50,858 nt of DNA from an uncultured bacterium (GCA_913009415.1 CAJVYM010000004.1:1-50858), one strand, 5' to 3'; counted from the stretch's first letter, positions 12,940 to 37,090 are shown. Program-made: numbers and translations. The notes: generated by a model from the letters alone, not told the origin.

Positions 12940-13022
12940 CGACCCTCCTTTAGACAAACAAATGCGATACCACTGTCTCTAGACCTGTACGGCCAGCTCC
13001 CACACTACTCCCTAGTTTGCAC

Positions 13023-13059: not shown

Positions 13060-13863
13060 ATGAACTCGCAAGGAAAGGCAACAAATCGACAGCATATGTT
13101 GACTGGCCAGCGCCGCCAGGTAATCCTGGAGCATGTTCAGTCGTATAAGGCAGTGAAGACTTCTGAGCTGTCGGAAACCTTTGCTGTCTCACCGATGACA
13201 ATCCGCAATGATCTGAATGCGCTGGCAGAACAGGGCCAATTGGTGCGCGTCCATGGTGGCGCAATCATGCGGCAGTGGCTGACAACCGAACCCTCCTATG
13301 ATGATAAGACAGACATAAATCGATCGGAGAAGGAAGCAATCGGTCGCGAGGCAGCAGCTCTAGTTGAGGAAGGGATGGCTGTCTTCATCGGCAATGGAAC
13401 GACCACCATGCAGATCATTCGCCATCTCCCTACTGATCGACATTTTCGCGTGTTCACCAACGCACTGAACCACTCGTTAGAGGTGAATCAGCTCCCACAG
13501 GCGAAGGTGTTCGTCGTTGGCGGGTACTTGCGCGAGGTCTCGTTGGCCATGGTAGGCAGATTGGCGCACCAGGCCCTGAAGGGGGTTTACTTTGACCTTG
13601 CTTTCCTTGGGGCTAATGGCATATCGATCGATCATGGATTGACGGTCCCTTCTTTGGAAGAAGCGGAGACGGCTGCCGAGGTCATCGACCACAGCCAACG
13701 GACGATTGTCGTGGCTGATCATACGAAATTTGGCATAGTGGCACATGGCAAGATCGCTGATATCTCTGATGTAGACGTAATTATCACCGACTCGGGATTG
13801 GATCCTCGACTAATGAATAGCCTCTCCAATTTGGATGTCGAGATCAATACCGTTATGGTATGA
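13060..13863 (+). CDS. DeoR/GlpR-family transcriptional repressor
   Basis: A 267-residue regulator. The N-terminal winged helix (about residues 15-70) has the DeoR signature RRQVILEHVQ, VSPMTIRNDLNALAEQGQLVRVHGG; the C-terminal DeoRC sensor domain (about 85-245) resembles sugar-phosphate isomerases and usually binds a phosphorylated sugar or glycerol-3-phosphate. The start at 13060 lies within a few bases of the predicted transcript start; ATG at 13096 (MLTGQRRQ) fits the family length better. It leads directly into the ABC importer and phosphodiesterase genes, so it is the likely repressor of this catabolic region, with a phosphorylated intermediate as inducer; both are inferences. Confidence 0.88.
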   Translation: MNSQGKATNRQHMLTGQRRQVILEHVQSYKAVKTSELSETFAVSPMTIRNDLNALAEQGQLVRVHGGAIMRQWLTTEPSYDDKTDINRSEKEAIGREAAALVEEGMAVFIGNGTTTMQIIRHLPTDRHFRVFTNALNHSLEVNQLPQAKVFVVGGYLREVSLAMVGRLAHQALKGVYFDLAFLGANGISIDHGLTVPSLEEAETAAEVIDHSQRTIVVADHTKFGIVAHGKIADISDVDVIITDSGLDPRLMNSLSNLDVEINTVMV

Positions 13864-13943: not shown

Positions 13944-15281
13944 ATGAAACGTGTTTTAGTGCTTGTTATGCTGGGCCTTCTGGTTTTCTCAGGACTGGCA
14001 CTGGCACAGGCGAAGCCGGTACAGATCACATTCTGGCACGCTTTTGGCGGCGCCCGGCAGCAGTGGGTCGCACGAAGGGTGGCAGATTTCAACTATACCC
14101 ATCCAGGGATTCAGGTCAGTGTGCAATTCAAGGGTTCCTACCGTGACACCTTGAATGCGGCTATCCTCGCTGCACAACAAGGTGACGCCCCAAACGTAGT
14201 GCAGATCTTCGAGATAGGTACTCAGCTCGCTCTGGACTCGGGCATCTTCATGCCAATTCAGGACCTTGTGATAGGGCCAGAATTCCAACCAGATGACTAT
14301 ATCAGTGCACTGACAGACTACTACAAGATCAATGGCAAGTTCAATTCCATCCCGTGGAACTCCTCTAACCCGGTACTGTTCTACAACAAGGACATCTTCC
14401 GCAAGGCAGGACTCGATCCTAACAAGCCGCCACGCACCTTCGAAGAGATGCTCGCTGATAGCAAGCAGATCGTGGAGAGCGGTGCCGCCAAGAACGCGAT
14501 CACCTGGCCTCTGCACTCATGGTTCTTTGAGCAGTGGATGGCAAACATGGGTGAAAACCTCGTGAACAACGGTAACGGACGCGACGCTCGCGCTACAGAG
14601 AGCCTCCTCACCGGTGACGGGGCAAAGACGATCCTCACTTGGTGGAAAGAGATGGCTGACAAGGGTTACTGGACCTACAGCGGCAGGGTGGAGGACTGGG
14701 ATGGCTCTGATGCTATCTTCATCTCCGGCCAGGCAGCCATGGAGATCACTTCCACAAGTGATGTTACCCAGCGCCAGAATGACGCTGCGGCAAATGGCTT
14801 CGAACTGGGTACGTCCTATCTGCCTTATCCCGCAATAACTGTCGGTGGCAGGAAGCTTACCGGTCCGGAAGGTGTCATCGTGGGTGGCGCCAGCCTCTGG
14901 ATCACCAAGGACCATCCGACCGCCCAGTTGCAGGCAGCCAAGACGTTTGTCCTTTGGTTCACCAATACGGAGAACAGCATCGCTTGGCACAAGGCCACTG
15001 GATACTTTCCGATTCACAAGTCGGCTATTGATGTACTCAAGGTCCAGAACTGGTTCGTGCTTAATCCAGCGTACAAGGCGGCATTTGATCAGCTGCTGAA
15101 CACAAAGCCGAGCCGCGCTACCCAAGGCGCGCTGATCGGTGCCTTCCCGCAGGTTCGAACGATCATCGAGCAAGCAATAGAGAAGGTTATCGCTGGTAAG
15201 GCCACAGTGGATGCTGCTCTAACGGAAGCTAAAGCGCTGGCCGATAAGGCGATCCAGGAATACAACCAGAGTGTTGAATAG
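13944..15281 (+). CDS. ABC importer substrate-binding protein (UgpB-like), system 1
   Basis: A 445-residue periplasmic binding protein with a Sec signal (residues 1-22, ending ALAQA) and no lipobox cysteine. The mature part starts ITFWHAFGGARQQWV and includes FKGSYRDTLNAAI and IPWNSSNPVLFYNKDIFRKAGL, the pattern of family 1 solute-binding proteins for sugars and glycerol-3-phosphate. AAGGAGG lies just before the ATG. Two permeases follow after a hairpin. Because a glycerophosphodiesterase follows in the same operon, glycerol-3-phosphate or a glycerophosphodiester is the favoured ligand, but sugar ligands are possible. It is paralogous to the protein at 26235, even in the start region. Confidence 0.88.
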   Translation: MKRVLVLVMLGLLVFSGLALAQAKPVQITFWHAFGGARQQWVARRVADFNYTHPGIQVSVQFKGSYRDTLNAAILAAQQGDAPNVVQIFEIGTQLALDSGIFMPIQDLVIGPEFQPDDYISALTDYYKINGKFNSIPWNSSNPVLFYNKDIFRKAGLDPNKPPRTFEEMLADSKQIVESGAAKNAITWPLHSWFFEQWMANMGENLVNNGNGRDARATESLLTGDGAKTILTWWKEMADKGYWTYSGRVEDWDGSDAIFISGQAAMEITSTSDVTQRQNDAAANGFELGTSYLPYPAITVGGRKLTGPEGVIVGGASLWITKDHPTAQLQAAKTFVLWFTNTENSIAWHKATGYFPIHKSAIDVLKVQNWFVLNPAYKAAFDQLLNTKPSRATQGALIGAFPQVRTIIEQAIEKVIAGKATVDAALTEAKALADKAIQEYNQSVE

Positions 15282-15317
15282 GAGACTTGTTCAAACTCTT
15301 TAACTAAGGCATAAAGA

Positions 15318-15355
15318 GATCGGGTGATCTCTGAAGTATCTTAGATCACCCGGTC
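15318..15355 (+). terminator. Intercistronic hairpin after binding-protein gene 1
   Basis: A 13-bp stem (GATCGGGTGATCT with AGATCACCCGGTC) with a 12-base loop lies between the binding protein and the first permease and is followed by TTGCTTTT. It probably acts as a partial terminator or mRNA stabiliser so that the binding protein is made in excess over the membrane subunits. Confidence 0.65.
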
Positions 15356-15394
15356 TTGCTTTTCAGCTCGCTCATAGGCACAAAAGGAGTAACC

Positions 15395-16285
15395 ATGCAT
15401 CAAGCCAGGTTCAAGGGAAAACTGATCCCATTCCTACTCATGGCACCCACCTTGGCTATCCTAGTCCTGTTCTTATACTTTCCAGTCTTGCAGACGTTTC
15501 GCCTCTCACTGTTTCGAGTTGCCTTCTTGGGGCTGCGGAAGAAATTCATCGGATTTGCCAACTTTGTCGACTTGTTCCAAAGCCCCGCCTATTTGCACAC
15601 GGTGTTGATTACGCTTCTCATCGCTGCCGCCATCGTTGTCATTGGGTTAAGCCTCTCTTTAGCCATCTCCGTTCTGGCTAACCAAAAGGTCCGCGGTGCG
15701 CGCGTCTATCGTCTGCTTCTGATATGGCCGTATGCCCTTTCTCCTGCGGTTGCCGGCATAATCTGGCTGTTCATGTTCTCTCCCGGTTTTGGAATAGTGA
15801 ATTACTTGCTCTCTATCACGCTACACATTGCGCCGAACTGGTTGGGTGATCCAGTTCTGGCGGTTATCCTCATAATTGTCGTTAGTATATGGAAGAATAT
15901 CGGCTATAACGTCGTCTTCTACCTTGCTGCCTTGCAGAACGTCAACACGGATATCTTGGAAGCGGCGGCGATTGACGGCGCGGGTCCCTGGCGTCGATTC
16001 CGGTCGATAACGTTTGCCCTTCTCTCTCCGATGACCTTCTTCCTACTGATCACCAACATAACCTACGCCTTCTTCGGTATCTTTGGCACAGTAGATATCA
16101 TGACCAAAGGGGGCCCAATCAATGGGACTAATGTCATGATCTACAATCTGTACCGTGATGGCTTCCAGTACTACAAGACAGGCTTTGCGGCTGCACAGTC
16201 AGTGATCCTCTTCGTTGGGGTGATTATTCTGACCATCATTCAGTTCCGCACCAGCGGACGCCGCGTGTATTATGGAGGAACATAA
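15395..16285 (+). CDS. ABC importer permease (UgpA/MalF-type), system 1
   Basis: A 296-residue membrane protein with six predicted helices. The cytoplasmic EAA loop, where the ATPase docks, reads ILEAAAIDGAGPWRRFRSITF at about residues 188-208. Starting at ATG 15395 is supported by AAAGGAG at 15384-15390; the open frame upstream overlaps the hairpin and is not used. It pairs with the next gene to form the channel. No ATPase gene is in this operon. Confidence 0.88.
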   Translation: MHQARFKGKLIPFLLMAPTLAILVLFLYFPVLQTFRLSLFRVAFLGLRKKFIGFANFVDLFQSPAYLHTVLITLLIAAAIVVIGLSLSLAISVLANQKVRGARVYRLLLIWPYALSPAVAGIIWLFMFSPGFGIVNYLLSITLHIAPNWLGDPVLAVILIIVVSIWKNIGYNVVFYLAALQNVNTDILEAAAIDGAGPWRRFRSITFALLSPMTFFLLITNITYAFFGIFGTVDIMTKGGPINGTNVMIYNLYRDGFQYYKTGFAAAQSVILFVGVIILTIIQFRTSGRRVYYGGT

Positions 16286-16287
16286 AA

Positions 16288-17112
16288 ATGAGAAGGAAAC
16301 GGATGCATTCTATCCTCACTCATATAGCGCTGATTATCGTGGTGTTTCTCCTCATCTCGCCCATCTTAGTGGCTTTAACTAAATCCACACAGACAAGGGC
16401 GCAAGTCTATCACTTTCCACCTGTCCTGGGATTTGGCTCATCGATGATTCAAAACTATGCAGCCGCGTGGAACGACTTCCACTTAGGTATGTACATGAAG
16501 AACAGTCTGATCATTGCCATGGTAGTGACCGTGGCTAAGACGGTTCTTTCCATGTTGGCGGGAATGGCCATCGTCTACTTTGACTTTCCTTTAAAGAATG
16601 CTATTTTCTACTTTGTACTGTTCACGTTAATGATGCCAACGCAAATACTTATCATTGCCCTATTCAACCTGATGTCAAACTTCGGCCTAGGAAACACCTA
16701 CGCTGCGCTGACCATGCCATTCTTAGCGAGCGCCACCGGTGTTTTTCTGTTCCGGCAACACTTTTCTAGCATCTCCCCCCACCTTGCAGATGCAGCCCGT
16801 GTTGATGGCGCCGGGCCGATCCGATTCATGTGGAGCGTGTTGATTCCCATGTCGTGGAACACGATTGCTGCACTCGGCCTTATTCAGTTCATCTACATGT
16901 GGAATCAGTATCTGTGGCCGCTGGTAATCATCAGGCAGAATGCGCGCCAGGTAGTGCAGGTAGGGCTGCGGAGCATGACGGCTCAGCAGGACGTTACCAA
17001 TTGGGGAATCGTAATGGCCGGAGCAGTACTCGCCATGCTCCCTCCTTTACTCATCTTCATCGGGTTGCAAGAGCAATTCACAAAGGGCTTTGTCTTAGGC
17101 AAGGAGAAATAG
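16288..17112 (+). CDS. ABC importer permease (UgpE/MalG-type), system 1
   Basis: A 274-residue membrane protein with six helices and an EAA-type loop LADAARVDGAGPIRFMWSVL at about residues 168-188. It ends in the family pattern FTKGFVLGKEK. The start follows GGAGG, with the upstream permease ending 2 bp before. Together with the preceding permease it makes the heterodimeric inner-membrane channel of a carbohydrate-type importer. Confidence 0.88.
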   Translation: MRRKRMHSILTHIALIIVVFLLISPILVALTKSTQTRAQVYHFPPVLGFGSSMIQNYAAAWNDFHLGMYMKNSLIIAMVVTVAKTVLSMLAGMAIVYFDFPLKNAIFYFVLFTLMMPTQILIIALFNLMSNFGLGNTYAALTMPFLASATGVFLFRQHFSSISPHLADAARVDGAGPIRFMWSVLIPMSWNTIAALGLIQFIYMWNQYLWPLVIIRQNARQVVQVGLRSMTAQQDVTNWGIVMAGAVLAMLPPLLIFIGLQEQFTKGFVLGKEK

Positions 17113-17113
17113 G

Positions 17114-17944
17114 ATGCCACGTGTCCTGAACATCGCACATGCGGGAGCGCGCAGTCTGGCACCTGAGAATACGGTCGCTGCAGCCAATAAGGCGCAGGAA
17201 GTGGGAGCCGACATGTGGGAGCTGGATGTCGCGGTAACGAGCGATCATGAGTTAATCCTGTTCCACGATGACTCGCTTGCCCGCACCACCAACGCGGGAG
17301 CCGTCTTTCCCAACCGGGCCCCGTGGACATTCAGCACGTTCGCCCTTGATGAGATTCGCACCCTCGACGCCGGATCGTGGTTTGTCGAAACTGATCCGTT
17401 CGGGGAGATCGCCGCGGGCAGGGTGAGCAAGGCCGAACTTGTCTCATACCGCGGGGAGCGCGTCCCGACGCTGCGTGAGGCGCTGTTGTTCACCAAGAAG
17501 CATCACTACCGTGTTAATGTGGAGTTGAAGCCGCTCCCCGCACCGCTTGAATCCTTCGCGGTTGTCCCGCCCGTACTGGCTCTGATCGATCAATTGGGCA
17601 TGGCAGAAGACGTTGTCATCTCCTCGTTTAATCACGCCTGGCTGCTCCAAGTGGAGCATGAGTGGCCGGAACTTACGGTGGAGTCGCTGATCGGTTGGCC
17701 GCGCAACAAGCCATTGGAATGGGATAACTTCCATTTCAAGACGTACAACGCCTCAGCAACACGATTGGAGCTAGCACAGATTCACATGTTGCGAGAGAAG
17801 GGACTGGAAATAAATGTGTACACCGTCAATGGCGAGCAAGAAATGCGGCGGTTCATCGCCGCCGGCGTGACCGGCTTGTTCACCGACTTTCCACAGCGGC
17901 TCGCGGCGATTCTTCATGAGGACGAGGAACAAACAGACGGTTAG
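17114..17944 (+). CDS. ugpQ: Glycerophosphodiester phosphodiesterase, cytoplasmic
   Basis: A 276-residue GDPD-family TIM barrel without a signal peptide, one base after the permease, as in ugp operons where UgpQ hydrolyses incoming glycerophosphodiesters to glycerol-3-phosphate and an alcohol. The start region reads IAHAGARSLAPENT; nearly all relatives have HRG, so the arginine that contacts the phosphate is replaced by alanine. The other catalytic features are present: ELDVAVTSD (metal-binding E and D), LILFHDDSLARTTN, and VYTVNGEQEM near the end. Its substrate could therefore be shifted within the family. Activity is likely but not certain. Confidence 0.88.
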   Translation: MPRVLNIAHAGARSLAPENTVAAANKAQEVGADMWELDVAVTSDHELILFHDDSLARTTNAGAVFPNRAPWTFSTFALDEIRTLDAGSWFVETDPFGEIAAGRVSKAELVSYRGERVPTLREALLFTKKHHYRVNVELKPLPAPLESFAVVPPVLALIDQLGMAEDVVISSFNHAWLLQVEHEWPELTVESLIGWPRNKPLEWDNFHFKTYNASATRLELAQIHMLREKGLEINVYTVNGEQEMRRFIAAGVTGLFTDFPQRLAAILHEDEEQTDG

Positions 17945-17956
17945 AGCGGAGCGAAA

Positions 17957-19354
17957 GTGACTAGGCAAGAGCCGCATGGGATGATCAACCTCAATGAACT
18001 GCAAGAGCTGATAAATCAGGAAGAGGTGGAGACGGTCATCGTTTCCTTCCCCGACATGTACGGTCGCCTGTTGGGTAAACGAGTCAGCGCAACATTCTTC
18101 TTAAGCGATGTAGCAGAGCAGGGCATCAACGCCTGTGACTACCTTCTCGCCTCGGATATGGAGATGAGCCCGAGCGTCGGTTACGAGTTCACCAGTTGGG
18201 AGAAGGGATATGGCGATATCAAACTTGTTCCCGACTGGAATACACTGCGGATTGCCAGTTGGCTGTCGAAGACTGCGCTTGTCCTGTGCGACGTAACGAC
18301 CTCTGATGGATTGCGCCCTGTCGCCATCGCTCCGCGCACGATCCTTGCTCGGCAGGTGGAAAAAGCAAAGGCGGCCGGGTTCCTTCCGCAGGGGGCGACG
18401 GAGCTTGAGATGTTCGTCTTTCGCGACTCCTACGGGCAGGCTAGAGAGAAGGGCTTCTCCAACCTACAGCCGTTTTCTTCCTACATTGAGGACTATCACA
18501 TTTTGCAGGCAGCGCGTGAGGAGCCCTTGATCGGTGCGATACGCCATCACCTGGAACAATCGGGAATCCCGGTGGAGACGAGCAAGGGGGAATGGGGAGC
18601 GGGTCAACACGAGATCAATATTCGTTACTCACCGCTTGTGGAGATGGGCGATCGAACCGTGCTCTTCAAGGAGATCTGCAAGGAGATAGCGATCCAGCAA
18701 GGAGTATCCTTGACATTCATGGCTAAGTGGAGCGAGGATGCGGCTGGTAACAGCATGCACGTTCACTCCAGCCTGTGGGAGATGGACGGGGAAAAGAGCA
18801 TATTTGCCGGGAATGAAAGAGTCCCAGGCCTTCCTGTCACCTGCTCACCGCTCTTTCGCTGGTACCTGGGCGGACTGATCGCGCACGCCCGCGAGCTCGC
18901 CCTGTTCTTTGCTCCCAACGTCAATTCCTACAAGCGCTACCAACAGAGCTCGTTTGCCCCGACACGCATCGCTTGGGCCTATGACAACCGCAGCGTCGGG
19001 TTTCGCGTCCTCGGAAGTGGGAACAACCTGCGCGTCGAGTGCCGCATTCCGGGAGCGGACGCCAATCCCTACCTTGCATTATCCGCGATCCTTGCAGCTG
19101 GCCTGGACGGGATCGAGAACAGGACCGAGCCTCCAGAGGCGATGAGCGGGAACGCTTACTCCGCATCCGAGGCCCAGCTCCTTCCGGGCAACATCTCTCA
19201 AGCGATCAGGCTGTTCGAGGGGAGCTCGTTCGTGCGCGCTGCGTTCGGTGACGACGTGGTAAATCACTACGTGCAGTTCGCAAGGCAAGAGGAGGAAGCG
19301 TTCTCCCGTGCGGTGACCGACTGGGAACGGGCGCGATTCTTCGAACGCATTTAA
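17957..19354 (+). CDS. Glutamine synthetase-like gamma-glutamyl amine ligase
   Basis: A 465-residue protein of the GlnA superfamily. It keeps the catalytic domain motifs ATELEMFVF, NSMHVHSSLW, and the NRSVGFRV...VECRIPGADANPYL region that binds ATP and glutamate. The N-terminal segment expected to hold the ammonia-site Asp and Ser of true glutamine synthetase (DGSS) instead reads DMEMSPSVGYEFTSWEKGYGD, the arrangement of PuuA and GlnA4-like enzymes that ligate amines such as putrescine or ethanolamine to glutamate. GTG at 17957 follows GGAG; ATG at 17981 is an alternative. It lies between a phosphodiesterase and AOR/GATase genes, matching use of a released amino alcohol. Substrate is inferred. 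Confidence 0.8.
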   Translation: MTRQEPHGMINLNELQELINQEEVETVIVSFPDMYGRLLGKRVSATFFLSDVAEQGINACDYLLASDMEMSPSVGYEFTSWEKGYGDIKLVPDWNTLRIASWLSKTALVLCDVTTSDGLRPVAIAPRTILARQVEKAKAAGFLPQGATELEMFVFRDSYGQAREKGFSNLQPFSSYIEDYHILQAAREEPLIGAIRHHLEQSGIPVETSKGEWGAGQHEINIRYSPLVEMGDRTVLFKEICKEIAIQQGVSLTFMAKWSEDAAGNSMHVHSSLWEMDGEKSIFAGNERVPGLPVTCSPLFRWYLGGLIAHARELALFFAPNVNSYKRYQQSSFAPTRIAWAYDNRSVGFRVLGSGNNLRVECRIPGADANPYLALSAILAAGLDGIENRTEPPEAMSGNAYSASEAQLLPGNISQAIRLFEGSSFVRAAFGDDVVNHYVQFARQEEEAFSRAVTDWERARFFERI

Positions 19355-19394
19355 TTCAGGTAAATATTATTCGGAAGGTTCTAAGGAGACAATA

Positions 19395-21329
19395 ATGCCG
19401 TATGGATACAATCAAAAGGTCCTCCATGTCGATCTATCCGCCGGGAAGATAACGGTGGAGGAGCCGGAGGAGAGGATATACCGCAAGTACATCGGTGGAA
19501 GCGCGCTCGGCCTCTACTACCTGTTGCATGAGATGCCGGGTGGCGCTGATCCCCTCGGGCCGGACAACGTGCTCGTCATATCGCTCAGCGCGATCACCGG
19601 CGCTCCGATATCGGGGCAGAGCCGGCTCACGGTTAGCGCCAAATCGCCGCTCACCGGCGCGATCGGTGACTCTCAGTCCGGCGGATTCTTCCCCGCGGAG
19701 ATGAAGTTCGCCGGGTACGATGCCATCGTCATCCGCGGTCGGGCGAACATACCGACGTACCTGTTCATCGAAAACGGGCATGCGCAGCTGCGTGATGCCT
19801 CGACGCTATGGGGAAAGGCGACCGGGGACGTAGAAGAAATGCTGCGCGCCGAGCACGGTGAGAAAGTCCAGGTTCTCCAGTGCGGTCCGGCGGGAGAGAG
19901 GGGAGTCCTCTTCTCAGGGCTTGTTAGCAGCGGAAACCACATCAACGGACGTACGGGGATGGGCGCGGTTATGGGATCGAAGAACCTGCGCACGGTCGTC
20001 GTCCGCGGTGATAACAAGCTTCGGCTCGCCGATCCGGATGCGTTGCGCGGTCTTGCTCGCCGCGGGGCGCGTTCTCTTCCCGAATCCGGGGTAGCCGGCC
20101 TCGGAAAGTACGGGACAGCGGGGATCGTCAGCTCTCAGAACGCGCGGGGCGGCCTTCCCACCCACAACTATTCGAGCGGCGTCTTCCGTGGACATGAGAA
20201 CCTCGATGGGAAAGCGATGTACGACACGATCCTGCGCGGTGCCAAAGATGGGAAACAGGACCAGTTGGGCCGTGGAACCTGCCACGCCTGTGCGGTGCGC
20301 TGCAAGCGCGTCGTCGAGGTGAGTGAAGGCCCGTTCACGGTCGATCCTCGCTACGGCGGCCCGGAGTACGAGACGCTCGCTGCGTTCGGTAGCTACTGCG
20401 AGGTGGACAACCTCGCCGCTGTGGCGCGAGCAAACCAGCTGTGCAACGCCTACGGGCTGGACACGATATCCTGCGGTGGGACGATCGCTTGGGCGATGGA
20501 GTGCTACGAAAACGGGATCCTCACCAAAGACGATACCGGTGGGATCGATCTGGCCTTTGGAAATGCCGAGGCTATGGTGCAGATGGTTGAACTGATCGCC
20601 AAGCGTGAGGGATTCGGAGACGTGTTGGCTGCCGGCTCGGCACGGGCTTCAAAGGCGATCGGGCGCGGCTCAGAGGTTTATCTAACGACCTCCAAGGACC
20701 AGGAAGCACCGGCGCACATGCCTCAGGTTAAGCCGACCGTCGGCCTGATCTACGCGGTCAACCCGTTCGGCGCCGACCACCAGTCACACGAACACGATGG
20801 CGCCTACGCTGGAGCGCCCGAGCGGATGGCACAGCTGGGGCTGTTCGACCCGCAGCCCCCGTTGACTCTGAACGCGGAGATGGTGCACTACGCCATCGTT
20901 ACCGAGCACTTCTACGGCCTGATGGACTCGCTCAACGTCTGCCAGTTCGTCTTCGGACCGGCGAGTTGGCAACTGTACGGGCCGAGCGATCTGGTGGAGA
21001 CGGTGCGCGCGGTCACCGGATGGAACGTGAGCTTGTACGAGTTGATGCAGGTCGGCGAGCGTCGATTGAACATGCTGCGCGCGTTCAACGCCCGCGAAGG
21101 GATCGGCCGCACTGATGATACCCTCCCCGAGAAGTTCTTCTCCGTCCCGCTCTCCGGAGGGACAAGCGACGGCTACCGGGTGGACCGGGGGAAATGGGGA
21201 CAGGCACGTGAGACGTACTACGCCATGTGTGGGTGGGATAGTGCGACCGGCTATCCCACACGAGCAACGCTTGAATCGTTGGGGATCGGCTGGGTCGCGG
21301 ACAAGCTGGAAGAAACGCAAAAGGACTGA
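19395..21329 (+). CDS. Aldehyde ferredoxin oxidoreductase family enzyme
   Basis: A 644-residue AOR-family protein. The N-terminal domain (VLHVDLSAGKITVEEP, KYIGGSALGLYYLL) is the tungstopterin-binding fold; CHACAVRC at about residues 295-302 gives three cysteines of the [4Fe-4S] site and the fourth is near 515 (LNVCQFVFG). Family enzymes oxidise aldehydes to acids and reduce ferredoxin; they are oxygen-sensitive and need W or Mo pterin. AGGAGA precedes the ATG. Position between a GS-like ligase and a class I GATase suggests a gamma-glutamyl aldehyde as substrate; free glyceraldehyde or acetaldehyde are simpler alternatives. Confidence 0.88.
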   Translation: MPYGYNQKVLHVDLSAGKITVEEPEERIYRKYIGGSALGLYYLLHEMPGGADPLGPDNVLVISLSAITGAPISGQSRLTVSAKSPLTGAIGDSQSGGFFPAEMKFAGYDAIVIRGRANIPTYLFIENGHAQLRDASTLWGKATGDVEEMLRAEHGEKVQVLQCGPAGERGVLFSGLVSSGNHINGRTGMGAVMGSKNLRTVVVRGDNKLRLADPDALRGLARRGARSLPESGVAGLGKYGTAGIVSSQNARGGLPTHNYSSGVFRGHENLDGKAMYDTILRGAKDGKQDQLGRGTCHACAVRCKRVVEVSEGPFTVDPRYGGPEYETLAAFGSYCEVDNLAAVARANQLCNAYGLDTISCGGTIAWAMECYENGILTKDDTGGIDLAFGNAEAMVQMVELIAKREGFGDVLAAGSARASKAIGRGSEVYLTTSKDQEAPAHMPQVKPTVGLIYAVNPFGADHQSHEHDGAYAGAPERMAQLGLFDPQPPLTLNAEMVHYAIVTEHFYGLMDSLNVCQFVFGPASWQLYGPSDLVETVRAVTGWNVSLYELMQVGERRLNMLRAFNAREGIGRTDDTLPEKFFSVPLSGGTSDGYRVDRGKWGQARETYYAMCGWDSATGYPTRATLESLGIGWVADKLEETQKD

Positions 21330-21339
21330 AGGAGAAAAC

Positions 21340-22206
21340 ATGGTTGTTGATAGGAGTCTATCGATCTGTATCTTGAACGCATACCCCAAGGAGAGCAGGG
21401 AGAAGTTCGATCGTTCAAACGTCGGGCACCCGCACGACATGTACCGCGCATTCCTCTCGGCCTACGTTCCGCCGGCCAAAGTGAATATTGCCTTTGTCGC
21501 CGATGTCGACGTGCCATTGCTGACGAATGACGAGATCGCCGCGTATGACGGGTTTATCTGGACCGGATCGGATCTCACCATCTACCACACCGACGACCAT
21601 CGAGTGGCGCGGCAGATCGAGCTGGCGCAGCGGATCTACGAGGTCGGCGTCCCCAGCTACGGAAGCTGTTGGGCGATCCAGATGGCGGTCGTCGCCGCTG
21701 GCGGAGAGGTGAAGAAGAACCCCAAGGGGCGCGAGTGGGGGATCGCCCGCGACATCACGCGGACGGAAGAGGGAAAGAAGTCGCTGCTGCTGGAGGGAAA
21801 GCCCGACCGCTACGACGGGTTCATCATGCACCTCGATGAGGGGACCGAGCTCTCCGCCGGGGCGACGCTCCTTGCTACAAACGAGCATACCCACGTGCAG
21901 GCGGTCGAGGTGAAGCACGCAAACGGCGTATTCTGGGCCACGCAGTACCACCCCGAGTACAACCTGTACGAGATGGCGCGCCTGATCGCCGCCCGCGCCG
22001 AGCCGCTAGTAAACGAGGGATTCTTCGGTACGACCGATGCGGTTGCCCAGTACGCGGAGAGGATGCGCGCCCTGCACGACAATCCTTCTTCAAAGGAGTT
22101 ACGAGCGCAGCTCAAGGTCGGAGACGACATCATCGATTCCACAATTCGCCAGCAGGAGATGCGTAATTGGATCGATTATTTGGTAATTCCATCAATAAAG
22201 CGTTGA
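21340..22206 (+). CDS. Class I glutamine amidotransferase-like hydrolase
   Basis: A 288-residue stand-alone GATase1 domain protein (the GMP-synthase-like group without a synthase domain). The nucleophile is the Cys in PSYGSCWAIQ at about residue 110, with the His and Glu of TQYHPEYN at about 204-206, so the triad is complete. Close structural relatives include gamma-glutamyl peptidases that cut gamma-glutamyl amides. The ATG at 21340 follows AAGGAGAAAAC, 10 bp after the AOR stop. In this operon it could release glutamate from a gamma-glutamyl compound made by the GS-like ligase; the substrate is inferred. A C-terminal 70 residues beyond the catalytic core are charged and helical. Confidence 0.8.
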   Translation: MVVDRSLSICILNAYPKESREKFDRSNVGHPHDMYRAFLSAYVPPAKVNIAFVADVDVPLLTNDEIAAYDGFIWTGSDLTIYHTDDHRVARQIELAQRIYEVGVPSYGSCWAIQMAVVAAGGEVKKNPKGREWGIARDITRTEEGKKSLLLEGKPDRYDGFIMHLDEGTELSAGATLLATNEHTHVQAVEVKHANGVFWATQYHPEYNLYEMARLIAARAEPLVNEGFFGTTDAVAQYAERMRALHDNPSSKELRAQLKVGDDIIDSTIRQQEMRNWIDYLVIPSIKR

Positions 22207-22222
22207 TCAACAGGAGGCACAA

Positions 22223-22987
22223 ATGAGACTAGCAGATAAGGTAGTATTTATCAGTGGAGCCGGTGGTGGAATGGGCCGCGAAGCGGCGCTCATGTTCGCC
22301 AAAGAAGGGGCGAAGATCGTGGCCAACGACTACCGCCCCGAGGCGGTGGAAGAGACGGTCAAGCTGGTGCAACAGCAGGGTGGCGAGGCGATCGCCGCTC
22401 CCGGCGACGTGGCAAACGCCGCTGACGTCAAGCGTGCGATCGAGATTGGGGAGAAGGAGTTTGGGAAGATAAATGTCCTGTACAACAACGCTGGGGTCAT
22501 GCCCGACGCCGACGAGTCGGTCACCGGTATGATCGACGAGGTGTGGGAACGGGTGCTGAACATCAACGCAAAAGGGGTCGCTCACTGCTGCCAATACGGG
22601 ATCCCAGCACTCCTGCGCGTCGGTGGCGGATCGGTGATCAACATCGCCTCCTTTGTCTCCCTCGTTGGATGCAGCATCCCGCAGGATGCATACACCGCGA
22701 GCAAAGGGGCGGTACTAGCCCTCACCCATTCCCTCGCCGTTCAGTTCGGCCCCAAGGGGGTGCGTACCAACGCCATCTCCCCTGGCCCCATACTCACTCC
22801 TCTCCTCGATGAACTCCTCGCCGATCCGGCCAAGCGCGCACTGCGCCTGAACCGCATCCCGATAGGGCGATTCGGGAAGGCAAGCGACATCGTCTATGCC
22901 GGGATCTACCTCGCCTCCGATGAATCGACATGGGTTAACGGGGCGAACTTGGTTGTTGACGGCGGAATTACAGTCAACTACTTCTAA
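22223..22987 (+). CDS. Short-chain dehydrogenase/reductase
   Basis: A 254-residue classical SDR. The Rossmann signature SGAGGGMG is at residues 11-18, then NNAG, the catalytic Ser in NIASFVS, and YTASKGA with the Tyr/Lys pair at about residues 155-159. The C-terminal WVNGANLVVDGGITV is typical. SDRs oxidise or reduce an alcohol using NAD(P). Within this cluster it could oxidise a gamma-glutamyl alcohol to the aldehyde for AOR; sugar-alcohol or glycerol-type substrates are equally possible from sequence alone. AGGAGG precedes the start. Confidence 0.9.
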   Translation: MRLADKVVFISGAGGGMGREAALMFAKEGAKIVANDYRPEAVEETVKLVQQQGGEAIAAPGDVANAADVKRAIEIGEKEFGKINVLYNNAGVMPDADESVTGMIDEVWERVLNINAKGVAHCCQYGIPALLRVGGGSVINIASFVSLVGCSIPQDAYTASKGAVLALTHSLAVQFGPKGVRTNAISPGPILTPLLDELLADPAKRALRLNRIPIGRFGKASDIVYAGIYLASDESTWVNGANLVVDGGITVNYF

Positions 22988-22999
22988 GGAGATGAAGAT

Positions 23000-23860
23000 A
23001 TGAGCAATTACTACCCGGATGTAGCGGCGGCGGCCTTCCCGGCTGATCATCCGCTGAGCGTGTGCAAGGGTTTTGTGTTCGATGTCGACGGCGTCCTCGT
23101 GCGGGGAGAGGAGACCATCCCCCGCTCACCCGAGGCGATCGAGCGGTTGCGCCGCGGTGGGAAGAAGGTGATTTTCATCTCCAACAATTCCACCAAGTCA
23201 CGCGAGGAGTACATCGCCAAGTTCACCCGCATCGGGATTCCGGTGACCGCGGACGATCTCGTCCTTTCCACGTACGCCACCGCGCGCTACGTAGCGAACG
23301 AAAAGCCGAGGGCGAAGGTGTACATGGTCGGCGCGCCCGGGCTGCGCCGGGAGCTGGAGCTGGCTGGGCTAGAGCTCGTCGACGATCCGCTCGTGGCTGA
23401 ATACGCGGTCGTCGGTTCGGCGTTCAACGGTAAAGGACAACTTACACCGGAGAACGGAGAACGGATCACCGGTGCGCTGCGCGCTCTCTACCACGCCGGG
23501 GCCAAGTTCATCGCCACGAACCCCGATCGCATATTCCCGGCCAAGGACGGCGTCATCCCCGGGACAGGCGCGGTGATCGGCGCGCTATCCTACATGGTCG
23601 ATCGGCAGCCGGACGCGATCATCGGCAAGCCCTCCCCGTACATCGTCAAGATTGCCCTCAACCGACTCGGACTCTCTGGAAGCGAATGTGCTATCGTTGG
23701 GGATATGGATACCGACATGCTCGCCGGGAAGGGAGTGGACATGACCACGATCTTCGTGCGCTCGGGGGCGATGAGCGAGGAAAAGCTGCGTTCCCTCGGG
23801 ATCTCTCCCGGGTTCGTGTTTGATTCAGTGATCGATATTTTGGAAGCAAAGGAGCAATGA
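23000..23860 (+). CDS. HAD-IIA family phosphatase, copy 1
   Basis: A 286-residue haloacid dehalogenase superfamily phosphatase of subfamily IIA (NagD-like). Motif I is FDVDGVL at about residues 25-31, motif II FISNNST, motif III a GKPSPYIVK, and motif IV VGDMDTDMLAG. The C2a cap lies between. Subfamily members hydrolyse p-nitrophenyl phosphate, phosphoglycolate, glycerol-3-phosphate or nucleotides. Position among glycerophosphate genes makes glycerol-3-phosphate or a related triose phosphate plausible. A paralogue is at 29336, each near an importer/phosphodiesterase set. Confidence 0.85.
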   Translation: MSNYYPDVAAAAFPADHPLSVCKGFVFDVDGVLVRGEETIPRSPEAIERLRRGGKKVIFISNNSTKSREEYIAKFTRIGIPVTADDLVLSTYATARYVANEKPRAKVYMVGAPGLRRELELAGLELVDDPLVAEYAVVGSAFNGKGQLTPENGERITGALRALYHAGAKFIATNPDRIFPAKDGVIPGTGAVIGALSYMVDRQPDAIIGKPSPYIVKIALNRLGLSGSECAIVGDMDTDMLAGKGVDMTTIFVRSGAMSEEKLRSLGISPGFVFDSVIDILEAKEQ

Positions 23861-23861
23861 G

Positions 23862-25079
23862 ATGAGCAAAGAGTCGTACATCGAGGCCTTGAAGGGTGGG
23901 ATCGCCAAGCTGCGCGCTGCCGGGCATGAGGTGACGCTGGTGCACCACAACGATGCCGACGGCCTCACCGCGGGAGGAATCCTGGAGACTGCACTCACGC
24001 GCGACGGATTCAAGGTAGAACGGATCGCGCTGGAGCGGATCCATCCGCCGATCGTCGAGCGGATTCACGATCGCGCCGCCGGCCACCCGGTAGTGTACAC
24101 CGACCTTGCGGGAAGAGCGGCCCCCATCATCTGTGAGCTGAACCGCGACCGCTCGTTCACCCTCATCCTCGACCATCATCCGGCCGAGGAGTCGACATCG
24201 GAGGAGGTGTTGAACCTGTCGAGCGAGCGCTTCGGCCTCTCTGGAGAGGATGAGATCTCCGCCGCCACGGCAGCGACGATCTTCGCCACCGTGCTCAACG
24301 AGAAGAACGTTGATCTTCGCTACCTCGGGGTGATCGGGGCGATCGGAGATTCGCACGATCGCAGCGGGAAGCTCATAGCCTACAATCGGGAAGCACTGCT
24401 GGATGCCGTGAAGCGCGGCGATATCAAGATCGTTTCGAAAGGAAGCGACAAAGAAGAGTACGTTCTCACCCGGTTCGGTGGGGAGATCCCGCTGACGCCG
24501 TTCTCCAAATCACTCACCATCCTCGGCGCCGCCGGGTACACCGTCGGCGGCCCGGAGGTGGGGATCCGTGCCTGCTTCGAAGGCCGAAGCGATGAGTACG
24601 ACAAGAAACTGGCGGAGCTGAGCGCACTCAAGGAAGAGCGGTTCGCAGTGCAGCTTGCCCGTCTGAAAAGTGGGAACCTGCACGTGACAAGTCACAATCA
24701 GTGGTTCATCGTTGGGGACGGCTTCTCCCCGATGGGCGTGAAGATCATCGGCGAATTCTGCATGGACATTCGCGATGAGGGATTCATGGATCCCGAAAAG
24801 TACATCGCCGGGTTCCAGGACATGCCGACCGAGATCCCTGGACTCGGGACGTTTGAGTGGGACCTTGCCAAGGTGTCGATGCGCGTTCCCACCCCACTTG
24901 GTCAGAAGATCATCGATAAGCAGATGCCCGGCCTCGACTGGCTCCTGCCGGAGGCGGCGTTGCAAGTTGATGGTACGATCGATGCCTGCCACGGTTATGC
25001 CGCCGCCGCGCTCGTGCCGCATGGGCGCGAGGAGGAATTGATCGTGCTGATGGATGAGCTAGTGGAGAAGGGACAATGA
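23862..25079 (+). CDS. DHH-family phosphoesterase
   Basis: A 405-residue protein with the DHH core: VHHNDADGLTAGG near residue 27 (first metal ligands), TDLAGRAAP around 84, and LILDHHPAEE near 103, the name-giving motif. Length and lack of an obvious OB fold resemble archaeal RecJ-like or GdpP/NrnA-like relatives more than bacterial RecJ. Two Mn ions would cleave phosphodiesters in nucleic acids, oligonucleotides or small molecules. It sits between HAD-IIA and GlpQ genes, overlapping the latter by four bases, so a small phosphodiester substrate in the same pathway is possible. I cannot settle the substrate. Confidence 0.75.
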   Translation: MSKESYIEALKGGIAKLRAAGHEVTLVHHNDADGLTAGGILETALTRDGFKVERIALERIHPPIVERIHDRAAGHPVVYTDLAGRAAPIICELNRDRSFTLILDHHPAEESTSEEVLNLSSERFGLSGEDEISAATAATIFATVLNEKNVDLRYLGVIGAIGDSHDRSGKLIAYNREALLDAVKRGDIKIVSKGSDKEEYVLTRFGGEIPLTPFSKSLTILGAAGYTVGGPEVGIRACFEGRSDEYDKKLAELSALKEERFAVQLARLKSGNLHVTSHNQWFIVGDGFSPMGVKIIGEFCMDIRDEGFMDPEKYIAGFQDMPTEIPGLGTFEWDLAKVSMRVPTPLGQKIIDKQMPGLDWLLPEAALQVDGTIDACHGYAAAALVPHGREEELIVLMDELVEKGQ

Positions 25080-26035
25080 AGAGACTAATGATGCTACTTA
25101 GTATTGGCATGGTGCTCATGATCAGTCTGGTGGGAGTGGCCCAGGGGAAGATCATCATCGGGCACCGCGGTGCAGCGGGATACCTCCCTGAGGAGACCCT
25201 TGCCGGGTATGCGTTCGGATATGCCTTGGGCGCTGACTACCTGGAGCCGGACCTGGTGCTGACCAAGGACGGGCATTTTATCTGCATGCATGACATCTAC
25301 CTGGAACCGACGACCAACGTGAAGCAGGTCTTTCCAAATCGGCATCGATCCGACGGACACTGGTATGCCGCCGATTTCACCCTGGCGGAGATCAAGACGT
25401 TGTCGGCTCATGAGCGGTGTAAGAGCGATGGCACGCCGTACTTCCCTGACCGATTCCCAGTGGGAAAGTCGCACTTTTCCGTGCCCACATTTATCGAGAT
25501 GATCGAGCTCGTGCAGGGGTTGAACAAGAGCACCGGGCGCAATGTGGGGATTTACCCTGAGCTGAAGCGCCCGGCTTGGCACGCGTCGCAGGGCCTTCCG
25601 ATGGAGAAGAAGCTGCTCGACATCCTCGACAAATACGGCTACAACAAACAGGGGGCGAGGATCTTCATCCAGTGCTTCGAGCCGGCTGCGCTGCAGAAGC
25701 TGCGTGCGTTAGGAACGAAGATTCCACTCATTCAATTGATCAGCGCCAACTGGTCGTACGCCAGCATGTGGACGAAGAGCGGCCTTGATCAGATCGCCAT
25801 TTATGCTGCTGGGATCGGGCCATCGAAGACGATCATCGAGAAGAACCCGGCATTCGTGCAGTGGGCACACGATCGGGGCCTCGTCGTTCACCCGTACGTA
25901 TTCCGGCGCGATGAACTTCCATCCAAGTATTCGAGCCTGGAACAGGAGATGAAACAGTTCTACTTCACCTACAACGTCGATGGCCTGTTCACCGACTTTG
26001 TCGATGTCGCCGCACGTGTGTTGCGGGGGCATTGA
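25076..26035 (+). CDS. glpQ: Periplasmic glycerophosphodiester phosphodiesterase
   Basis: A 319-residue secreted GDPD. Residues 1-24 are a Sec signal (MKRLMMLLSIGMVLMISLVG, cleavage near AQG). The mature start IIGHRGAAGYLPEETLAGY has the intact HRG motif, followed by DYLEPDLVLTKDG and CMHD (metal-binding and catalytic residues). A family-specific long insertion follows, as in GlpQ. It would hydrolyse glycerophosphocholine, -ethanolamine and similar compounds in the periplasm, delivering glycerol-3-phosphate to an importer. It overlaps the DHH gene by four bases and ends the first operon. Unlike UgpQ in this window, its catalytic residues look canonical. Confidence 0.92.
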   Translation: MKRLMMLLSIGMVLMISLVGVAQGKIIIGHRGAAGYLPEETLAGYAFGYALGADYLEPDLVLTKDGHFICMHDIYLEPTTNVKQVFPNRHRSDGHWYAADFTLAEIKTLSAHERCKSDGTPYFPDRFPVGKSHFSVPTFIEMIELVQGLNKSTGRNVGIYPELKRPAWHASQGLPMEKKLLDILDKYGYNKQGARIFIQCFEPAALQKLRALGTKIPLIQLISANWSYASMWTKSGLDQIAIYAAGIGPSKTIIEKNPAFVQWAHDRGLVVHPYVFRRDELPSKYSSLEQEMKQFYFTYNVDGLFTDFVDVAARVLRGH

Positions 26036-26234: not shown

Positions 26235-27533
26235 ATGAAACGTGTCCTAGTGGTTGCTCTACTGGCGGTACTGGTTCTGTCTTCGTTCGCGTTTGCGGAG
26301 AAGACGCAAATTACCTGGTGGCATGCGATGAGTGGATCCCGTCTGCCGATAGTAAATGCAATTGTAGACGGATTCAACGCAAGTCATCCAGATATTCAAC
26401 TGACAGCAATGTTCACCGGAAGCTACTCTGAAACACTGACCAAGTTCATCGCATCGTACAAGACGGGCACAGCTCCGAACCTTGTTCAGGTCTACGAAGT
26501 GGGAACACAGACCATGCTTGATAGTCAGGCGATCATCCCCGTGTACAAGGTACCGGGTATGCTGGGAGAGACATGGGATTGGGCACAGTACATCATCCCG
26601 ATTACCAACTACTACTCTACCAATGGGAACCTGTGGTCGATGCCGTTTAACTCTTCAACAGCGATGCTCTACTACAACAAGGACCTGTTTACTAAGGCAG
26701 GTTTAGATCCCAACAAGCCACCTACAACGTGGAAAGAGGTTGAGGAATACGGCCAGAAGCTCCACGATAGCGGTGTAAAGAATGTCCTCTCCTTCGGTTG
26801 GCCTGGCTGGATATTCGAGCAAATGTTTACTACCCACAACCAACTGTTTGCCAATAATAACAACGGGCGCAGTGGGCTGGCAACAAAGATGTTGTTCAAC
26901 GGCGACTTTGGTACGATGGTCCTCGGTACTTGGACGAAGCTAGCTAAAGAGGGAATCTTCCTCTATGGTGGACCGGAATACTCCGCCAACACCGCCTTTA
27001 AGTCGGGGCAGCTTGCTATGCTTCTGCAGTCAACTTCCTCCCTTTCTGGAATAGAACAGGGTTCTGAGTTCGCTGTTGGTACAAGCTTCCTCCCTCGCTT
27101 TGAGGGATACCCGATGGGCGACTCTGTCATTGGTGGCGGAAGCCTGTGGATCCGCAAAGGTCAGAGCACAAAGGAACTTAATGCCGTATGGGAGTTCTTG
27201 AAGTATCTTGCCAAGACCGATGTTGCCATCCAGTGGCATAAAGGGACAGGCTATTTCCCGACGGTGAACTCCGCAGTGAAGGCCCTTCTCGATGAGGGGT
27301 GGTTCAGCAAGGATCAGAACTATCTGACCGCTTTCTTGCAGATTCTCTCTGGGCGGCGCGATACGGCTGCGGTCAGGGGCGTACGCCTTGGGCCGTTTGT
27401 TCAGATTCGCGAGATCGAACGGACAGCGATCGAGAAGGCTGTTTCGGGAGTGATGACTCCCAAGCAGGCCTTGGACGAAGCTGCACAAAAAGCAGATCAG
27501 CTCCTCCAGGATTACGCAGCGTTAAATAGCTAA
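26235..27533 (+). CDS. ABC importer substrate-binding protein, system 2
   Basis: A 432-residue periplasmic binding protein with signal MKRVLVVALLAVLVLSSFA and cleavage after FAFA, no lipobox. The mature start QITWWHAMSGSRLPIV and the blocks FTGSYSETLTKF and LYYNKDLFTKAGLDPNKPP parallel the system 1 protein closely, and the ribosome-site/start region (AAAGGAGGTAACAAATGAAACGTGT) is practically the same in both, so the two arose by duplication. It precedes permeases and a HAD-IIA phosphatase. Likely ligands are glycerol phosphates or sugars; the two systems may divide related ligands. Confidence 0.88.
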   Translation: MKRVLVVALLAVLVLSSFAFAEKTQITWWHAMSGSRLPIVNAIVDGFNASHPDIQLTAMFTGSYSETLTKFIASYKTGTAPNLVQVYEVGTQTMLDSQAIIPVYKVPGMLGETWDWAQYIIPITNYYSTNGNLWSMPFNSSTAMLYYNKDLFTKAGLDPNKPPTTWKEVEEYGQKLHDSGVKNVLSFGWPGWIFEQMFTTHNQLFANNNNGRSGLATKMLFNGDFGTMVLGTWTKLAKEGIFLYGGPEYSANTAFKSGQLAMLLQSTSSLSGIEQGSEFAVGTSFLPRFEGYPMGDSVIGGGSLWIRKGQSTKELNAVWEFLKYLAKTDVAIQWHKGTGYFPTVNSAVKALLDEGWFSKDQNYLTAFLQILSGRRDTAAVRGVRLGPFVQIREIERTAIEKAVSGVMTPKQALDEAAQKADQLLQDYAALNS

Positions 27534-27544
27534 GGAAAAAGATC

Positions 27545-27576
27545 GTGCGGAGGCATGCCTTGCGCTGCCTCCGCAT
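27545..27576 (+). terminator. Intercistronic hairpin after binding-protein gene 2
   Basis: An 11-bp stem (GTGCGGAGGCA with TGCCTCCGCAT, final G-T pair) with a 10-base loop sits 12 bp after the binding-protein stop. No T-run follows, so it is more likely an mRNA-stabilising or processing structure than a full terminator. The same arrangement occurs after the paralogous gene at 15318. Confidence 0.55.
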
Positions 27577-27606
27577 ATTCAGATCTCCCAACTAAGGAGA
27601 AAGTTT

Positions 27607-28500
27607 ATGCAGGAAGACAGGTTCCCCGGGCATCGGTACCTGCCCTATATTCTAATTCTGCCTTCAGTGGCAATTATCGTTATATTCCTAGTAGTTCCCT
27701 TTGTTCAGAGTGTACACCAGTCTTTCTTTACCTCGACCGCTTTCGGAACGAGGACTATATTCGTTGGGCTGCGTAATTACATGCGCCTCTTTTCCTCGCC
27801 TGACTATCATAGGAGCATCGTTACTACATTGGTGTTCTCCGCTTTTGTAATCCTGATTGGTCTTTCCATGTCGCTAGCAATTGCGCACTTGTTGAATCAG
27901 AGGATCCGCGGGCGAGGATTCTATCAGATTGCCCTTATCTGGACATACGCGCTATCACCTGCTGTCGCGGGGACTATATGGGCGTTGATGTTTGCCCCAG
28001 CGACAGGGATCGTCCCATATATCGTCGCCAAGCTATTCGGAGGCTACGTTCTCAATTGGATGACAAATGGGAAATTGGCCCTGCTGATAGTGGCTGCCGC
28101 TGCCACCTGGAAGATGCTTGGATACAACATCGTCTTCTTTCTCGCAGGGTTGCAGAACGTGCCAGGAGAGTTATTGGAGGCGGCACGCGTCGATGGGGCA
28201 AGTGGGTGGTTGGCATTCTGGAGAATAACTTTCCCTATGCTCTCGCCAACGACCACTTTCCTTCTGTTTGTGAACATGCTCTACTCGTTCTTCCAGGTGT
28301 TTGGACTCATAGACATAATGACCCGTGGTGGACCAGGCGATGCGACGAATATTCTCGTGTACAAGCTGTACCGAGACGGCTTCCTCTACTTGAATTCAGG
28401 TTCAGCCTCTGCACAGTCATTCATTATTTTTATTGTTATTTCCATTGCCGCGGTCATTCAGTTGAGGGTGGCCACAAGGAAAGCCGTTTACGCTCGGTGA
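27607..28500 (+). CDS. ABC importer permease (UgpA/MalF-type), system 2
   Basis: A 297-residue six-helix permease with an EAA loop LLEAARVDGASGWLAFWRITF at about residues 190-210. AAGGAGA precedes ATG 27607. It is paralogous to the permease at 15395, retaining the same order and lengths, and pairs with the next gene. The operon again lacks an ATPase gene. Confidence 0.88.
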   Translation: MQEDRFPGHRYLPYILILPSVAIIVIFLVVPFVQSVHQSFFTSTAFGTRTIFVGLRNYMRLFSSPDYHRSIVTTLVFSAFVILIGLSMSLAIAHLLNQRIRGRGFYQIALIWTYALSPAVAGTIWALMFAPATGIVPYIVAKLFGGYVLNWMTNGKLALLIVAAAATWKMLGYNIVFFLAGLQNVPGELLEAARVDGASGWLAFWRITFPMLSPTTTFLLFVNMLYSFFQVFGLIDIMTRGGPGDATNILVYKLYRDGFLYLNSGSASAQSFIIFIVISIAAVIQLRVATRKAVYAR

Positions 28501-28511
28501 GGTGACACACA

Positions 28512-36986: not shown

Positions 36987-37090
36987 CGATCCTCCCACAT
37001 TCCTGTTTTCTTATGAGATAGATTCCGCAGGATCTGATCTCCCGTCCAATACTATCACAAATTGCCCATAAAATGAAAGATCGCCGTATG

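Follow-up and report, generated by a model that had tools for sequence, protein, structure and literature searches.

Why should an uncultured member of the Bipolaricaulota keep a glutamine synthetase (GS)-like ligase, a tungsten-type AOR, a GATase-fold hydrolase and an SDR side by side, directly behind genes for the uptake and cleavage of glycerophosphodiesters? The question is raised by a stretch of DNA of 50,858 nucleotides (hereafter, the window), which is contig C4 of a MAG of 2.3 Mb (91% complete). The four genes lie on one strand, 10-40 bp apart. A reading made from the DNA alone (hereafter, the sequence-only reading) had described them as four consecutive genes placed behind a glycerophosphodiesterase (GDPD) and its importer, and their order, common direction, close spacing and coordinates are all as it gave them. 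So is their setting: a UgpB-like protein, two permeases and a GDPD occupy 13944-17944, directly upstream of the ligase gene. The cluster itself is much larger than that reading supposed, the operon extending over about 13060-35507 (~20 kb), with the uptake and use of glycerophosphodiesters and G3P as its theme.

The run, co-directional and entirely on the plus strand, opens with a DeoR-family regulator (13060-13863), a 62% homologue of which lies beside GDPD-GATase-SDR in locus L068. It is followed by a UgpB-like substrate-binding protein of the glycerol-3-phosphate/glycerophosphodiester type (13944-15281; NF008211, 248 bits, under the equivalog cut-off of 411), whose gene is kept beside GDPD in L034, L124, L127, L128 and L129, and by the pair of ABC permeases that completes this importer (15356-16285, 16288-17112; 70-74% identical in L034). 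The first GDPD (17114-17944; Pfam GDPD, 128 bits) is of the cytosolic type; no signal peptide is seen in its sequence, so that head groups would be freed in the cytosol, next to the pathway enzymes. Then come the ligase (17957-19354), the AOR (19395-21329), the GATase (21340-22206) and the SDR (22223-22987), a HAD-IIA phosphatase of the phosphoglycolate/glycerol-phosphate type (23000-23860; TIGR01460, 134.9 bits for a cut-off of 100.15), a DHH gene, a second GDPD of the exported GlpQ type with an N-terminal signal sequence (25076-26035; NF008354, 312 bits for a cut-off of 254), a second importer of the same type, with its binding protein and two permeases (26235-29339), a second HAD-IIA phosphatase (29336-30127; TIGR01460, 150 bits for a cut-off of 100) and an Ldh_2 gene. 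The run closes at 31358-35507 with genes for G3P and glycerol catabolism (a GlpK-like FGGY kinase, a GlpA-like FAD protein with a BFD [2Fe-2S] domain, and an FAD/NAD oxidoreductase in the GlpB-like position). Just upstream of the operon, a minus-strand fragment (12640-12957) closely resembles the C-terminal end of an ATPase of the UgpC/MsmK type encoded at 35907-36998, also on the minus strand, as if this end had been duplicated.

We think that this cluster is probably an operon for the salvage of glycerophosphoethanolamine by a gamma-glutamylation route. Glycerophosphoethanolamine would enter through the Ugp-type importer and be cut by GDPD in the cytosol into G3P, which would pass to the Glp enzymes encoded in the same operon, and ethanolamine, which the GS-like ligase would couple, at the expense of ATP, to the gamma-carboxyl of glutamate. 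The SDR would then oxidise the terminal alcohol of the gamma-glutamylethanolamide to an aldehyde with NAD(P), the AOR would convert this aldehyde to gamma-glutamylglycine with reduction of ferredoxin (a step for which the known clusters of the route use an NAD-dependent ALDH), and the GATase-fold hydrolase would release glycine and glutamate, the latter being recycled. The gamma-glutamyl cap would prevent aminoacetaldehyde from condensing and would mark it for release. Every substrate in this scheme, as well as the direction of flux, is borrowed by analogy from established pathways. That ethanolamine is gamma-glutamylated had already been suggested in the sequence-only reading, and the suggestion gains from the ethanolamine permeases found beside GS-SDR pairs and from the pathways described for GlnA4 (PMC6529630) and for Phaeobacter (PMC10132767). 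As for the EutBC route of ethanolamine degradation, EutB (PF06751) was found in none of 27 genomes (the E. coli control was found), so that, judging from these draft genomes, their owners cannot use this coenzyme-B12-dependent route.

The gene order is more than chance: in a sister genome the whole set is present at 77-94% identity, and the same families recur together in another phylum. The sister genome is the closest named relative, Candidatus Bipolaricaulota isolate AUK022 (L033), in which the order is the same. The arrangement importer-GDPD-GS-GATase-SDR is found in L069 and L124, and in L034 with two genes inserted; the full set occurs in a member of the Anaerolineae (L127) as AOR-GATase-importer-GDPD-GS-SDR, an order unlike that of the window. 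Partial versions are GlpD-GS-GATase-SDR (L035), SDR-GS-GATase with permeases (L125), importer-GDPD-GS-SDR (L229) and importer-GS-SDR (L230), and GS, ALDH and GATase are consecutive on a plasmid of P. versutus and likewise in B. vietnamiensis. Most of the related operons have GDPD directly beside GS or GATase, and GATase predicts GS in the Anaerolineae, where GS is present in 12 of the 21 genomes with GATase and in 59 of the 375 without (p = 4e-5). The expectation that all four families would be conserved together with GDPD is thus borne out for GS, GATase and SDR, which several genomes from two phyla (Bipolaricaulota and Chloroflexota) encode together with GDPD and importer, and in part for the AOR, which is linked to the operon only in the genus of the window and, rearranged, in L127, that is, in two independent lineages. 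As the ligase is also set apart from GlnA (see below), the sequence-only reading has withstood both of its own refuting conditions. A strict requirement for all genes together is ruled out by operons in which GATase and GDPD occur without a ligase. In Paracoccus pantotrophus (L062, 7103-15083), the genes behind a homologous GS-ALDH-ADH cluster are BhcBCD, which belong to the beta-hydroxyaspartate cycle, an adjacency that fits a C2 product feeding glyoxylate/glycine metabolism.

In the proposed route, two enzymes flank the oxidation of the aldehyde. The SDR, announced as the fourth gene, scores 204 bits with adh_short_C2 and is 53% and 51% identical to SDRs encoded beside GS in Thermomicrobium and Allomeiothermus; an SDR adjoins GS in 31 of the 37 loci, which span several phyla, and its probable function is that of a gamma-glutamylethanolamide dehydrogenase. 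The GATase (Pfam GATase, 47 bits for a cut-off of 22.8) was correctly seen as a stand-alone class I protein with a complete Cys-His-Glu triad: C109, H203 and E205 are present, and invariant across 26 homologues. The best match of its AlphaFold model (pLDDT 96) among solved folds is plant gamma-glutamyl peptidase 1, including the gamma-glutamyl intermediate of this enzyme, and the protein is probably a gamma-glutamylglycine hydrolase. The family is rare (5 of 100 Bipolaricaulota genomes, 21 of 396 Anaerolineae genomes).

The identification of the AOR as a tungsten-type aldehyde:ferredoxin oxidoreductase agrees with its AFOR_N and AFOR_C domains (237 and 394 bits), the four cluster cysteines, and the residues aligned with E313 and H448 of the P. 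furiosus AOR; its relatives in the PDB are 9mqx, 1aor and 8c0z. We propose that it oxidises gamma-glutamyl-aminoacetaldehyde, a role predicted from two independent linkages and from the exchange of AOR for ALDH. The AOR of L127 is not the sister of the one in the window, and the two fall in separate AOR branches, which suggests that an AOR joined the operon twice and makes a single AOR-bearing ancestral operon unlikely. As for the exchange, the order in L070 is GDPD-GATase-SDR-ALDH-HAD-GlpK-GlpD, with ALDH in the role of the AOR. A GATase-linked ALDH is present in six Anaerolineae genomes (visibly as SDR-ALDH-GATase in four of them), and among the 21 GATase-bearing Anaerolineae an AOR of the window's subfamily occurs in none of these six and in 13 of the 15 others (p = 5e-4), a pattern of exclusion to which a respiratory lifestyle may add. 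An AOR homologue (60%) also lies in a Thermoflexia locus (L082, 1016-9195) amid class III aminotransferase-like, ferritin-like and ALDH-like genes and an Lrp-type regulator, again a setting of the amine or amino-acid degradation type.

One could argue that the gamma-glutamyl route is real and the AOR a bystander, which detoxifies other aldehydes while an ALDH encoded elsewhere acts on the intermediate. Several Chloroflexota operons with GS, GATase and SDR (L034, L035, L124) indeed have no linked gene for an aldehyde-oxidising enzyme, and AORs of the window's subfamily are common in the Anaerolineae (162 of 396 genomes). Close AORs are found in 149 of the 375 genomes without GATase, so that this AOR family is not specific to the gamma-glutamyl route, and the co-occurrence of AOR and GATase across the 396 genomes is a trend only (p = 0.066). 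Against this stand the position of the AOR between GS and GATase, with gaps of 40 and 10 bp, its separate entry into the operon in two lineages, the ALDH in its place in L070, and the mutual exclusion of linked ALDH and AOR; we therefore regard a bystander AOR as rather unlikely. Returning to glycerophosphoethanolamine salvage, the stronger claim would be that of a ferredoxin-linked, B12-independent degradation of ethanolamine, in which uncultured Bipolaricaulota and Anaerolineae convert glycerophosphoethanolamine to glycine by a route encoded in a single operon, an AOR oxidising the gamma-glutamyl-protected aminoacetaldehyde, and in which both the ligase (GS/GCS2) and the aldehyde oxidase (AOR/ALDH) are exchangeable. 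On this claim as a whole our judgement is evenly balanced.

The ligase is the second module that seems to be exchanged. None of the six ALDH-type Anaerolineae genomes has the GS ligase, and five of them carry a gamma-glutamyl ligase of the GCS2 family, which argues that the gamma-glutamyl chemistry was retained and the ligase replaced. Like gene identity and order, the catalytic residues and the ligase clade, these replacements (ALDH for AOR, GCS2 for GS) are read directly from the sequence. The GCS2 gene lies within ~7 kb of GATase in L133, L135 and L138, and its product may be a second type of amine gamma-glutamyl ligase. This glutamate-cysteine-ligase-like protein (14822-16147 in L138; also in L133, L135, G261, G363 and G371) occurs where the GS-like ligase is missing, in a neighbourhood of SDR, ALDH, GATase, choline-kinase-like and GcvT/FAD genes. 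A weakness of the route lies in five genomes (G052, G078, G120, G122, G138) that have GATase, mostly with GDPD and SDR, and in which neither a GS nor a GCS2 ligase was found. Only G122 offers a candidate explanation: between GDPD and GATase (L128, 8600-8740), a frame of 43 codons joins a short GS-like N-terminus to a GS C-terminus, and is apparently a GS relic left by an internal deletion. The C-terminal match covers 15 residues at 67% identity (profile E = 0.0018), the N-terminal part by itself being short and weak evidence; no such relic was seen in L068, L129, L126 or L070. In L129, a RACo-type [2Fe-2S] ASKHA protein (10373-11941) follows GDPD-GATase, in an operon that has neither SDR nor ligase.

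It is also conceivable that the same route serves another small amino alcohol or amine (derived from 2-aminoethylphosphonate, or serinol, or isopropanolamine), and that GDPD and importer share the operon merely through phosphorus or nitrogen scavenging. GS and GATase are clustered in L136 (5018-16505) with the 2-aminoethylphosphonate genes PhnX, PhnW and PbfA, a metallophosphoesterase and an FAD oxidoreductase, the GS of L207 lies beside a 2-aminoethylphosphonate transaminase, and the neighbouring IpuC branch acts, by annotation, on isopropylamine and alaninol. We nevertheless consider a different amine distinctly unlikely: in T. roseum (TIGR00908, 436 bits for a cut-off of 382) and in the Anaerolineae locus L244 the gene adjoining GS-SDR encodes an ethanolamine permease, and the GDPD gene immediately precedes GS in the window, L033, L069, L124, L127 and L229, which points to ethanolamine released from a glycerophosphodiester.

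A choline/betaine module is less probable still, and we give it little credence. GDPD would free choline from glycerophosphocholine, SDR and AOR or ALDH would produce betaine aldehyde and betaine, and GS and GATase would be unrelated. The linked ALDHs do score best against betaine-aldehyde dehydrogenase (528 bits, under the cut-off of 669), and genes resembling those for choline kinase and sarcosine/dimethylglycine dehydrogenase are found in the clusters of the ALDH type. However, choline has no primary amine and this scheme leaves no job for GS and GATase, the ALDH-type clusters carry the GCS2 gamma-glutamyl ligase as well, the SDR tracks GS across phyla, and GS-SDR is accompanied by permeases for ethanolamine, not by choline transporters.

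Finally, the salvage route depends on the nature of the ligase (GTG start, alternative ATG at 17984; Gln-synt_C, 320.9 bits), which had been described as a GS homologue without the ammonia-site DGSS region. In the alignment the DGSS loop is indeed absent and D50, S53, N264 and E327 of GlnA are replaced by E, P, A and F, two of these losses being those of the acidic residues, D50 and E327, discussed as missing in amine ligases in the GlnA4 paper (PMC6529630); residues for glutamate, ATP and metals (E131, E212, E220, H269, R321, R339, E357, R359) are retained. The protein scores 240.6 bits with TIGR00653, for a GlnA cut-off of 429, and also misses the type III GS cut-off widely. In a tree of 79 proteins it groups with those of T. 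roseum, Allomeiothermus, Ruegeria, Arthrobacter and Embleya, with 5dm3 (Csal_0679) and with 11zs; the IpuC branch is the sister of this clade, PuuA is further out, and the organism's own GlnA (G000:C120) is far away. The grouping with T. roseum, Ruegeria and 5dm3 has moderate support (0.71-0.83), which rises to 1.0 once the IpuC branch is included; in this tree the Embleya protein (L206) stands in for GlnA4 as the representative of the Streptomycetaceae. The AlphaFold model (pLDDT 90) matches, among others, 11zs, 5dm3 and the 1-naphthylamine GS. On sequence grounds, the ligase is thus a member of the ethanolamine gamma-glutamylase clade (GlnA4/ETAGA type) and not a glutamine synthetase, which upholds its earlier designation as an amine ligase, and it probably functions as a gamma-glutamylethanolamide synthetase. 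An ordinary glutamine synthetase in an accidental neighbourhood, for which membership of the GS family by Pfam and TIGR00653 might speak, is ruled out for practical purposes by the score, the lost residues, the separate clade and the GlnA that the genome has elsewhere.

If correct, our interpretation adds Bipolaricaulota and Chloroflexota to the Actinobacteria and Proteobacteria in which the gamma-glutamyl ethanolamine route was known, and links the route physically with the uptake of glycerophosphodiesters. It also gives one of the many AORs without known substrate a definite candidate, and points to a GATase family and a GCS2 subfamily open to assay with simple compounds. Our literature searches returned nothing relevant on AOR with ethanolamine or on Bipolaricaulota with glycerophosphodiesters, and no precedent for an AOR in an operon with a gamma-glutamyl ligase.

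How does the locus compare with known systems? The AORs of P. furiosus (1aor) and Aromatoleum (8c0z) are homologous to the window AOR over the full length and have the same FeS ligands and E313/H448; the window AOR differs in sharing an operon with a gamma-glutamyl ligase and in its substrate, which is a proposed one. The Puu putrescine pathway of E. coli has the same logic (the amine is glutamylated, oxidised, and released by a GATase-fold enzyme), and to this extent the analogy drawn in the sequence-only reading stands. It is a loose one: PuuA is 27.5% identical to the window ligase and belongs to a distant branch, PuuD and the GATase share 21%, and the flavin oxidase PuuB takes the place of the SDR, with no flavin oxidase among the four genes. 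A strict Puu reading is ruled out by these low identities and by the ligase score with the PuuA equivalog NF045547 (203 bits for a cut-off of 650). The IpuC isopropylamine/alaninol cluster of pTC1 brings together the genes for a GS-like ligase (39%), an SDR, an ALDH and a GATase; it differs in the clade of its ligase, in a GATase only 22% similar, and in its P450 front end. The ethanolamine gamma-glutamylase cluster of Phaeobacter sp. MED193 (EtoVWX, ETAGA, GAADDH, GETADH, GGAH) has a homologous ligase and serves phosphatidylethanolamine breakdown; its proteins become more abundant on phosphatidylethanolamine, and its binding protein has been tested for ethanolamine binding (PMC10132767). The gene order published for it is also that of cluster L203 from Ruegeria (RpiR, amidohydrolase, three TRAP genes, GS, ALDH, Fe-ADH), the GS of which is 47% identical to the window ligase. 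The Phaeobacter cluster differs from the window in importing ethanolamine by a TRAP system and in having an alcohol dehydrogenase of the Fe type, an NAD-ALDH and a hydrolase of the N-formylglutamate amidohydrolase type, and phosphodiester handling is encoded elsewhere. In S. coelicolor, GlnA4 has been shown biochemically to make gamma-glutamylethanolamide, and its cluster holds SDR, ALDH and GATase (glutamine amidotransferase) genes, with gamma-glutamylglycine as a proposed intermediate (PMC6529630). The window likewise has an alcohol dehydrogenase (SDR) and a candidate gamma-glutamylglycine hydrolase (GATase); no NAD-dependent ALDH was found among its cluster genes, the AOR standing there instead. 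In the aerobic S. coelicolor, ethanolamine is imported as such, with neither GDPD nor Ugp importer. The chemistry of the route is already known from S. coelicolor and Phaeobacter. What is new, according to our searches, is that an AOR takes over the aldehyde step, that a single operon combines the route with GDPD and an importer for glycerophosphodiesters, that the route occurs in Bipolaricaulota, and that a GCS2 ligase is swapped in among the Anaerolineae.
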